Shown here: positions 10,086 to 48,083 of the stretch, one piece after another
How positions within the stretch are numbered: position 1 is the stretch's first letter
How the letters are laid out: each line of letters opens with the position of its first letter
NCBI GenBank assembly: GCA_003279455.1
Contig: QCHU01000005.1
Span: 1 to 54,017 of the forward strand
DNA: 54,017 nucleotides
Direction of reading: 5' to 3'
DNA from: Prochlorococcus sp. AG-402-G19
GTDB lineage: Bacteria; Cyanobacteriota; Cyanobacteriia; PCC-6307; Cyanobiaceae
Translations under genes and position numbers: made by a program
Notes under the pieces: generated by a model
Told to the model about the DNA's origin: nothing
Databases searched by the model: none
What the model saw: the letters and a program-made list of their open reading frames with translations, nothing else

Positions 10086-10407
10086 CCTATATTTTTTGAT
10101 GACCATCTTGGTTTATCAAGCTCGCGAAATAGGGAATTTAATATATATAAATAATTTCATGAGAGTAGGTTTTATAAAACGTAAATCATTTTAAATAAAT
10201 AACTCTAAGTAATTATCTTTCTTAGAGTTATTTATTAATTCAATATCCTTAGTCAATCATTTTTGATAACCTAATTGCTTTTTTCTCTTTTGAATTGTTG
10301 TTATTTACCTGTTATCAGAGTGAATCTTTTTTGTAATTCTCCTGTGATTTGTGATAAATTTCCCTCCTTATTAAACACACTAGCAATTAAAAGATATACC
10401 GTCTTGA
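10086..10407. other. Intergenic gap between convergent genes
   Basis: About 320 bp between the converging GT32-like and methyltransferase genes. The main content is a long perfect hairpin listed separately. A 64-codon frame at 10000-10194 runs out of the glycosyltransferase 3' end but has no recognisable features, so I do not count it as a gene. Confidence 0.5.
10194..10236. terminator. Terminator-like hairpin between convergent genes
   Basis: The segment 10194-10209 is perfectly complementary to 10221-10236 (16 bp stem, 11-nt loop, core ACTCTAAG/CTTAGAGT). The arm ends are A/T runs, so each strand gives a stem closing in U-rich sequence. Lying between convergent genes, a bidirectional terminator is the natural reading. 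The stem is mostly A-T, so its strength is uncertain. Confidence 0.55.
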
Positions 10408-14692: not shown

Positions 14693-15205
14693 ATGAATGA
14701 ACAGAAACCAACTTTTAAAGAGGCTATGCAAGCAACAATGATATGGTGCAAAAGTTGGGAAAACGATGAAATAAGTGACGAAGTTATTTCTGATCGTATT
14801 GGCGAGCTTATTAAAACATTAGAAGGCGCTAGAGGATTTTTGGTTGTAAGTCTCTCAATAGATTGTCCTTTAATGGATAGATGTCCTGATGCATTAATTT
14901 TTCAATTAAGAAGTTCTGGAGCAATTATTGTTGATTTAATCGTAAAGAATCTTGCCATGAGTTCGGCAATGATAATTACACATCGAAATAATGAAGATCC
15001 TCAAGAAATTCAATCAGAGAGAATAAAAATTCGGTGTATTGAATTACTTAAGCTATTAGATTCAACTCAGGTAAAAAAGCGTTTAAATACTCTACTAGAA
15101 GCAACAAAAGGGATGGGAACGGACTTGAAATTTTTTAATAAATGGGGGTATAACTATGAACAAATCAATGCAATATCAGAAAGTATTTATAAAGTTGCAA
15201 CATAA
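14693..15205 (+). CDS. Conserved cyanobacterial hypothetical (possibly DUF1824)
   Basis: A soluble 170-residue protein without signal or membrane segment. The segment TLEGARGFLVVSLSIDCPLM (residues ~44-63) resembles the GARGFxVxxL pattern I associate with DUF1824 proteins of cyanobacteria, but this is a weak memory. The C-terminal half is helical and ends FFNKWGYNYEQINAISESIY. Function unknown. It is followed directly by an intrinsic terminator and so seems to be transcribed alone. Confidence 0.6.
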   Translation: MNEQKPTFKEAMQATMIWCKSWENDEISDEVISDRIGELIKTLEGARGFLVVSLSIDCPLMDRCPDALIFQLRSSGAIIVDLIVKNLAMSSAMIITHRNNEDPQEIQSERIKIRCIELLKLLDSTQVKKRLNTLLEATKGMGTDLKFFNKWGYNYEQINAISESIYKVAT

Positions 15206-15232
15206 AAAAAGAGCCTTTCGGCTCTTTTTTTA
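15204..15232 (+). terminator. Intrinsic terminator
   Basis: GAGCC (15211-15215), loop TTTC and GGCTC (15220-15224) form a GC-rich stem extended by flanking A and T runs, followed by seven T. It overlaps the stop of the gene ending at 15205. The A run gives a T run on the other strand, so it can also end the Bax-inhibitor-like gene that converges on it. Confidence 0.9.
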
Positions 15233-15251
15233 TATTTAGTTTGATATCGTC

Positions 15252-46997: not shown

Positions 46998-48083
46998 ATG
47001 GCAGACATAGTTATTCTGGTTTTATTTCTCTTATCAGGTGCAATCACCGGATGGATTGGGGTGAATTGGTTACCTGAAGAGACTTTAGATCGTATAACTA
47101 ATTTAAAAAATTTTAAAATTGCTCTATCAGGGTTAACCGCTTTTGTAGGTCTTTTAGTTGCCTTTCTTTTTCAGCAGTTTAGAAATAAATTAACTAAAAG
47201 GATAAGAACAATGCCAACAGATCTACTAGTAAGTAGATCTGTTGGCATTGTTCTTGGACTTATCATAGCAACACTTTTATTAGTACCCGTATTACTTTTA
47301 CCTTTACCCGCTGAATTATTTTTTGTAAAGCCAATTTTTGCTGTACTAAGCAACATATTTTTTGGAGTACTTGGATATAACCTTGCTGATGTTCATGGTC
47401 GAACAGTTTTACGTCTTTTCAATCCAAACAGCACTGAATCTTTATTAATGGCAGATGGGATTCTAACCCCAGCGAGTGCAAAAGTTTTAGATACAAGTGT
47501 AATAATTGATGGACGCATTCAGGCCCTCCTTAAATTTAGGCTCATAGAAGGGCAAATAATTGTCGCTCAATCAGTTATAGACGAGCTACAAAAACTCGCT
47601 GACTCAAGTAACAATGAAAAGCGAGGAAAAGGAAGGAGAGGTCTTAAATTGCTAAACCAATTGAGAGAAAGTTATGGCAGAAGATTAGTTATCAACAGTA
47701 CAAAATATGAAGGAGAAGGAACTGATGAAATTCTTTTAAAATTAACTTCAGACATTTCAGGAATGTTAATAACTGTTGATTACAACTTATCTCAAGTAGC
47801 TCAAGTACAAGAAATAAAAGTTCTAAATCTAAGCGATCTAGTTCTCGCAGTTAGACCTGAGGTTCAACCTGGTGAAAAATTAAATTTAAAAGTAGTTAGA
47901 GAAGGCAAGGAAAATTCACAAGGTATTGCCTATCTTGAAGATGGCACAATGGTTGTTATTGAGGAGGGCTTCCAATGGATAGGTAAAAGAATAGAAGTAG
48001 TTGTGACTGGAGCACTACAAACACCGACAGGGCGAATGGTTTTTAGTAAAGCTTCCAATGATCAGCCCACGAACAAATTTTAA
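46998..48083 (+). CDS. PIN-TRAM domain membrane protein (YacL-like)
   Basis: Predicted membrane-bound RNase or RNA-binding protein of unknown target. The N-terminal ~140 residues have about four hydrophobic helices (such as IVILVLFLLSGAITGWIGVN). The PIN domain starts at about residue 162 with KVLDTSVIIDGRIQALLKFR and IIVAQSVIDELQKLADSS, and has LITVDYNLSQVAQV near 255 with the last acidic residue. A TRAM-like C-terminus follows (EGKENSQGIAYLEDGTMVVI). The 361 residues match the family. A 24-bp perfect inverted repeat lies at codons 69-86, between the second and third hydrophobic helices. Confidence 0.88.
   Translation: MADIVILVLFLLSGAITGWIGVNWLPEETLDRITNLKNFKIALSGLTAFVGLLVAFLFQQFRNKLTKRIRTMPTDLLVSRSVGIVLGLIIATLLLVPVLLLPLPAELFFVKPIFAVLSNIFFGVLGYNLADVHGRTVLRLFNPNSTESLLMADGILTPASAKVLDTSVIIDGRIQALLKFRLIEGQIIVAQSVIDELQKLADSSNNEKRGKGRRGLKLLNQLRESYGRRLVINSTKYEGEGTDEILLKLTSDISGMLITVDYNLSQVAQVQEIKVLNLSDLVLAVRPEVQPGEKLNLKVVREGKENSQGIAYLEDGTMVVIEEGFQWIGKRIEVVVTGALQTPTGRMVFSKASNDQPTNKF
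47204..47255. repeat. Perfect 24-bp inverted repeat inside the PIN-TRAM gene
   Basis: The arm at 47204-47227 (beginning AAGAACAATGCCAAC, ending AGATCTACT) is the exact reverse complement of 47232-47255, with a 4-base loop AGTA. It encodes Arg-Thr-Met-Pro-Thr-Asp-Leu-Leu-Val-Ser-Arg-Ser-Val-Gly-Ile-Val-Leu. Because the repeat is a palindrome, the minus strand also encodes an RTMPTDLL-type stretch. Such length without mismatch is not expected by chance. Confidence 0.97.

Follow-up and report, generated by a model that had tools for sequence, protein, structure and literature searches.

What maintains a perfect inverted repeat inside a protein-coding gene, and do matched changes between its arms reflect selection or templated mutation? 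This question is raised by a coding palindrome in a contig of Prochlorococcus sp. AG-402-G19 (QCHU01000005.1, positions 1 to 54,017; this whole stretch of 54,017 nucleotides is referred to here as the window). The two arms (47204..47227 and 47232..47255, forward strand) are 24 nt each, are 100% complementary and enclose the loop AGTA (47228..47231), 52 bases in total, and among inverted repeats with arms no more than 100 nt apart this is the longest of the window. The host gene (46998..48083, forward strand) encodes a PIN/TRAM protein of 361 amino acids with a PIN_4 domain at residues 163-277 (26.3 bits; Pfam cut-off 21.9) and a TRAM domain at residues 289-338 (23.7 bits; cut-off 21), of which the N-terminal part may, on our reading of the sequence, be membrane-embedded. 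The exact repeat with its 4-nt loop in a PIN-TRAM gene, as given in a preliminary description of this DNA, is thus confirmed. From the look of their translations, we take the neighbors of the gene to be hemW- and panB-like genes upstream and two clpP-type genes downstream. The left arm runs from the third base of codon 69 to the second base of codon 77 (R70 T71 M72 P73 T74 D75 L76 L77), and the loop, which varies in sequence, consists of the third base of the L77 codon plus codon 78 (V here; V in 18, I in eight and F in four of 30 sequences of the main clade defined below). The right arm, which is the exact reverse complement of the left one, comprises codons 79-86 (S R S V G I V L), including I84 and V85 (47247..47252), two replacements relative to sequences outside the genus that form pairs 9 and 6. 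An antisense open reading frame of 61 amino acids (47171..47356, reverse strand) repeats the residues of the arms (RTMPTDLL-SRSVGIVL) and is taken as a by-product of the palindrome.

The predicted RNA fold of positions 47190-47270 is very stable (-44.2 kcal/mol, z -10.7), with none of 200 shuffled sequences reaching the same stability, and the palindrome helix is also present in the fold of a 703-nt RNA. The features of an intrinsic terminator are absent from the coding palindrome, which lies in mid-gene and is not followed by a T run after the stem. It was also considered as a known RNA family; however, no Rfam family reached its gathering score, the matches consisting of five below the threshold (four microRNA hairpin families and one rliD). 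Mobile palindromic elements that insert inside genes, e.g., REP and Rickettsia palindromic elements, likewise place a palindrome within a reading frame. Unlike these, the palindrome is single-copy in its own genome (G000; 1.28 Mb in 45 contigs, 67% complete), where a 101-base query matched only its own place and its own reverse strand, and its homologues align without a gap at this site, so that it brings no extra residues. A repeated mobile palindrome is therefore ruled out. The Rickettsia elements are also cited in PMC6649704.

A search of 41 genomes of the genus gave a match in 37 and none in four, and three of the matches were fragments elsewhere in the gene, leaving 34 that cover the region. 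After collapsing duplicate gene rows (28 removed, from 136 to 108), the comparison comprised 30 sequences of a main clade, four deep branches of the genus (L052, L053, L054 and L113) and 74 sequences taken as lying outside the genus by a protein identity of at most 73%. Within the main clade, 24 of 24 pairs are formed in 13 sequences, 23 in ten, 22 in three, 21 in two and 19 in two. The deep branches form 17, 15, 17 and 20 pairs, respectively, and the outside sequences carry an imperfect palindrome of 10-18 pairs. The absence of the near-perfect repeat outside the genus holds for these 74 sequences (57 + 17 rows) alone, because only they were compared whereas 373 genomes of the family had a match. 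The pattern expected of a quasipalindrome, imperfect in relatives and perfect in the focal lineage, is hence what is found (10-18 pairs outside against 19-24 in the main clade). Since the outside relatives already hold an imperfect palindrome, the chance expectation of 4^-24 per site put forward in the preliminary description is based on the wrong null, although its conclusion that the repeat is not due to chance stands. The 30 main-clade sequences include 27 distinct 52-mers and 21 distinct arm pairs, and the independent states are fewer than the sequences because the 13 perfect ones collapse to five distinct arm sequences. At least one mismatch, of many kinds, is present in 17 of the 30, and L018 and L024 carry five unrepaired mismatches each. 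The relatives include Prochlorococcus single-cell genomes, e.g., AG-402-M18, and the clade is probably the low-light LLI group. In L113 (genome G011), which branches deepest in the genus, a core of 17 bp is perfect and uses another codon pair (CCT/GTA) at position 13, and L84I is present; L052-L054 branch later than L113 and are less paired, which amounts to either parallel gain or loss. In three draft genomes, a contig ends inside the PIN/TRAM gene (G012:C12, G026:C9 and G028:C49, near residues 220, 20 and 148, respectively), perhaps by chance or because of assembly trouble near the hairpin.

The protein sequence encoded by the arms is partly ancient and partly new. At residues 73-77, 79-80 and 83, all 74 outside sequences are identical, in agreement with the earlier impression that this stretch is conserved in marine cyanobacteria; that impression does not extend to GIVL at residues 83-86, which is peculiar to the main clade. 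At residues 84 and 85, every one of the 74 outside sequences has L and I, whereas every one of the 30 main-clade sequences has I and V; pairs 9 and 6 arise from the first bases of these two codons and are formed in 0/74 and 30/30, respectively. Among the four deep branches, I84 occurs in two and V85 in one, and given the tree, I84 of L113 apparently arose in parallel. Residue 89, which lies outside the palindrome, has also shifted, from L in 74/74 outside sequences to V in 20, I in seven and L in three of the main clade. Because of this shift, L84I and I85V may have another cause, and the region may have been freer to change in the main clade.

The register of the repeat places third codon bases opposite third codon bases at arm positions 1, 4, 7, 10, 13, 16, 19 and 22, which allows covariation to be followed at silent sites. 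In the main clade, 218 of the 240 wobble-wobble cells are paired against 84.5 expected from the codon usage of the clade (maximum of 113 in 2000 draws). In a tree from which the arm region was left out, both partners of a pair changed on a shared branch in 11 cases, whereas third positions matched for the number of changes give 3.0 on average (maximum of 9 in 10,000 draws). When the partner columns were slid by 1-4 codons, 41-141 of the 240 cells were paired and 2-6 co-changes were counted. The synonymous sites of the two arms thus do covary, as the preliminary description had proposed to examine, and they do so beyond relatedness, as is typical of conserved RNA structures. Outside the genus, co-change is not significant in the 74 sequences (24 versus 20.6 expected, p 0.23), which led us to reject an ancient, family-wide hairpin. 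Pairs 13 and 16 do exceed the codon-usage expectation there, both in 27 low-GC3 sequences (15 versus 9.8 and 15 versus 9.5, respectively) and in 44 high-GC3 sequences (31 versus 19.5 and 23 versus 11.0), and four of the 74 sequences (L139, L073, L077 and L078) are singly above the pairing expectation at p <0.01. These excesses are taken as shared ancestry, while a weak signal may be conceivable.

A functional RNA helix is usually demonstrated by covariation of its paired bases, and a hairpin in the mRNA that is under selection is the first rival to consider. According to this explanation, the 24-bp coding helix acts when translation lags and compensatory mutations keep its pairing, and it may serve as an RNase III substrate, as a pause site or as a site read by the PIN/TRAM protein itself. 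Besides the strong covariation in the main clade, the very stable fold, the RNase-like domain encoded by the host gene and the lack of a comparable repeat in the predicted open reading frames of 854 kb (see below) are all consistent with it. Moreover, Prochlorococcus populations are thought to be very large, so that even weak selection on pairing could work. The fine structure of the changes, however, is not that of an RNA helix. Of the pair breaks reconstructed on the tree, five are G.U, 11 are A.C and 13 are others, and the mismatched cells of the 30 main-clade sequences include seven G.U and 12 A.C. The excess of G.U over A.C expected of an RNA structure under selection is not seen, the two classes of break being not different from equal (p 0.21). 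In rRNA stems, 78.5% of two-step compensations involve G-U pairs (PMC8794818); with this share, five or fewer G.U among 16 has a probability of 7e-5, in a comparison in which the sample is small and the reference ratio comes from rRNA. In addition, 9-10 of the 14-15 direct pair replacements are double transversions and only five could pass through G.U, whereas 61.0% of instantaneous rRNA compensations could do so (PMC8794818). Double transversions speak against the RNA route because no G.U intermediate exists for them, although the four at pair 7 say less, since the genetic code closes the silent route from T-A to T.G (ATA to ATG).

Rates point in the same direction. On the 30-tip tree of the main clade, third positions changed 3.2 times per site in the arms and 3.3 times elsewhere in the gene (3.6 and 3.5, respectively, when L052 is added). 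The arm sites are uneven, with 0 to 8 changes each, and the five fourfold sites among them changed 5, 4, 8, 1 and 2 times, compared with a mean of 4.5 at 79 others. Such unslowed third positions count against an RNA helix, in which the need for compensating pairs should slow them. Together with the mismatches in 17 of 30 main-clade sequences, the non-significant co-change outside the genus and the failure of any Rfam family to reach its gathering score, these observations make a selected mRNA hairpin unlikely, if still worth taking seriously: of that proposal in the preliminary description the covariation holds, while the G.U excess is missing, many replacements are double transversions and third positions are not slowed. 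The lack of a G.U excess, the double transversions and the unslowed third positions are all strand-symmetrical and fit copying at the DNA level.

Four observations call for an explanation: the palindrome exists, it is conserved, silent changes in its arms are coordinated, and these changes do not look like those of an RNA. The best explanation, and in our view a fairly probable one, is that the palindrome is kept by repeated copying of one arm from the other through template switching under coding constraint. The starting point would be an imperfect inverted repeat in the ancestral gene. During replication, the nascent strand would fold back at the hairpin, or switch to the other strand, so that one arm serves as the template for the other (quasipalindrome correction) and a near-perfect repeat results. 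A substitution entering one arm would subsequently be either copied to its partner or erased, and changes that damage the protein as well as loop inversions would be purged. Many of the copied changes would be silent, and thus tolerated, because third codon bases pair with third codon bases. That the arms change together even where no G.U route exists is what this process predicts, and it is what the double transversions document. The same kind of replication event as at the intergenic hairpins described below would act at the PIN/TRAM gene, and the hairpin would need no function to persist. Of the three options listed in the preliminary description, a quasi-palindrome perfected by template switching is the best supported, by the co-change, the double transversions, the unslowed third positions and the footprints described next.

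These footprints are found at hairpins between genes in the same genus. A terminator-type hairpin at window positions 15199-15236 (orthologues L263-L292) was followed in 30 genomes. In G005, this locus holds a perfect 30-bp inverted repeat whose right flank, by eye, repeats the left one in reverse complement. In G002, G010 and G030, which are 94-96% identical over the locus, the left flank is that of G005 (with one difference in G010) and the right flank is another one, two bases shorter (by eye). The hairpin forms 24/24 pairs in G005 and G024, 22 in G036 and 21 in G001, the arms being perfected beyond the core, and in G040 the loop is GAAA where the relatives have TTTC, one candidate loop inversion. 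At a second intergenic hairpin, the left flank copies the right one in G002 and G010 (by eye), while in G030 the left flank is another sequence and the right flank deviates by a single T. In the comparison of the intergenic hairpins, L351 gave no usable hairpin and L336 a different one, and both were dropped. Judged by eye, the flank differences at both hairpins are multi-base and separate close relatives, as template switching predicts; selection at the RNA level may nevertheless act on both, as they resemble terminators. At the coding site, changes occurred mostly one pair at a time and no multi-base copying event was seen, nor was a loop inversion noticed, which there would change the protein.

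A further aspect is how exceptional the coding palindrome is. Inverted repeats were surveyed in 854 kb, i.e., the window and 40 stretches of 20 kb from the 2.05-Mb genome G005, 39 of them spaced along the genome and one set on the PIN/TRAM gene, with predicted open reading frames of at least 80 codons. Perfect arms of at least 16 nt inside such frames occur only at the PIN/TRAM site, in both genomes, and the runners-up score 15, among them an 18-nt arm with one mismatch. The palindrome may be rare because few protein sequences permit such a repeat: in the 735 predicted frames of the G005 sample (633 kb), at most 43 positions could hold 24 pairs by synonymous change, an upper bound since many overlap and overlapping loops were counted apart, and the PIN/TRAM site is the only one of them in third-third register. 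Two shorter coding inverted repeats used as controls lose their pairing (8-14 of 14 pairs across 30 sequences, the query among them, and 6-8 of 15 across five others; partial matches of one search in other genomes, within residues 1-75 and with 40-59% identity, were left out), and arm-copying therefore does not keep every coding inverted repeat. An inverted repeat of 14 bp within the coding sequence of a 414-aa gene (L162 15478-15511 of G005, orthologues L231-L259) is fully paired (14/14) in L230 and L237, though by different base pairs, forms 8-13 pairs in the other 28 sequences, and is possibly a weaker case of the same process. Outside predicted open reading frames, the survey also showed a 19-nt inverted repeat (95%) with a 5-nt loop at window positions 10194-10236 and a palindrome of 26-nt arms with one mismatch and no loop at L177 2905 of G005.

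Template switching and selection could also act together, the former supplying the paired changes and weak selection on some property of the hairpin removing broken versions. The uniqueness of the site in the coding sequence sampled agrees with such a mixture, and so, as a marginal hint that broken forms are short-lived, does the position of 27-28 of the 29 breaks on terminal branches compared with 895 of 1137 third-position changes elsewhere, a terminal share that is inflated because ancestral ties were resolved towards paired ancestors. Since breaks would also be erased by arm-copying alone, which may be enough to hold the palindrome, we consider the mixture rather improbable. A selected DNA feature, e.g., a cruciform or a protein-binding palindrome, would explain that pairing is kept while the sequence changes and that A.C and G.U breaks do not differ significantly; with 21 distinct arm pairs in 30 sequences there is, however, no fixed motif, we know of no established family of such palindromes inside genes, and this possibility is very improbable. 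An assembly, amplification or strand-switch artefact, which the fragmented state of the window's genome (45 contigs, 67% complete and probably from a single cell, judging by its named relatives) might evoke, can be dismissed, because 34 of the 41 genus genomes hold the region, and the repeat is present in 30 main-clade sequences with the reading frame open across it, six of them from the single-contig genomes G002-G007, which carry 22-24 pairs each.

Arm-copying through template switching has precedents. It is described as creating and maintaining hairpins in rRNA genes (PMC8794818) and occurs in yeast coding genes (PMC8604942), and loops of 4 nt are overrepresented where compensatory changes were instantaneous (56.0% versus 42.1%; PMC8794818). 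The palindrome resembles known cases of quasipalindrome correction (PMC8794818, PMC8604942, PMC7202029) in that an imperfect inverted repeat with a short spacer becomes perfect and its arms are homogenized. It differs from the cases presented in the parts of these papers considered here, i.e., hot spots in reporters, changes between yeast strains and rRNA stems, in that the process would have acted again and again at a single coding site across much of the genus. Perfect coding palindromes are also known from nematomorph mitochondrial genes, for which arm conversion, possibly by template switching, was raised as an alternative to function (PMC6649704). There too, both arms encode conserved residues, although here residues 84-85 are conserved only within the clade. 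As far as the portion of that study considered here goes, the nematomorph repeats have arms of up to 142 bp and are many per genome, and the third-third register, frequent among the short ones, does not occur in those longer than 65 bp (PMC6649704). The present case, by contrast, is a single 24-bp third-third site in a bacterial chromosome, one in the predicted open reading frames of 854 kb, followed in a larger sample of species that shows covariation. Template switching has also been invoked to explain why inverted repeats of 6-9 bp are slightly overrepresented in coding sequence (Ladoukakis and Eyre-Walker, cited in PMC4060949); the proposed cause in protein-coding DNA is the same, but, as cited there, it concerns a statistical excess of short repeats and not one long conserved site. 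With structured mRNA elements of the Rfam type the palindrome shares a helix conserved by paired changes, but it lies inside codons, is seen in one genus and lacks a G.U preference. Among the titles and abstract openings listed, a scope outside which most subscription journals fall, neither the PIN/TRAM palindrome locus nor a genus-wide coding palindrome in a bacterial chromosome was found, and the part of PMC2518516 covered holds nothing on the PIN/TRAM gene. What sets the palindrome apart from these known cases is that it is a single long site of a bacterial chromosome whose covariation can be followed through most of a genus.

The palindrome offers a natural case in which many species and a coding frame that serves as internal control reveal strong covariation with a fine structure that points to arm copying, and which makes the question of selection or templated mutation testable. 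If arm-copying is the true explanation, a working RNA structure cannot be concluded from matched changes alone. The palindrome could even be a self-perpetuating mutational attractor, kept through most of the genus, producing RNA-like covariation without an RNA function and rewriting two otherwise invariant residues, a proposal that we advance tentatively, as plausible but short of probable. For the protein, the palindrome suggests that a hairpin can drag a conserved sequence along with it.
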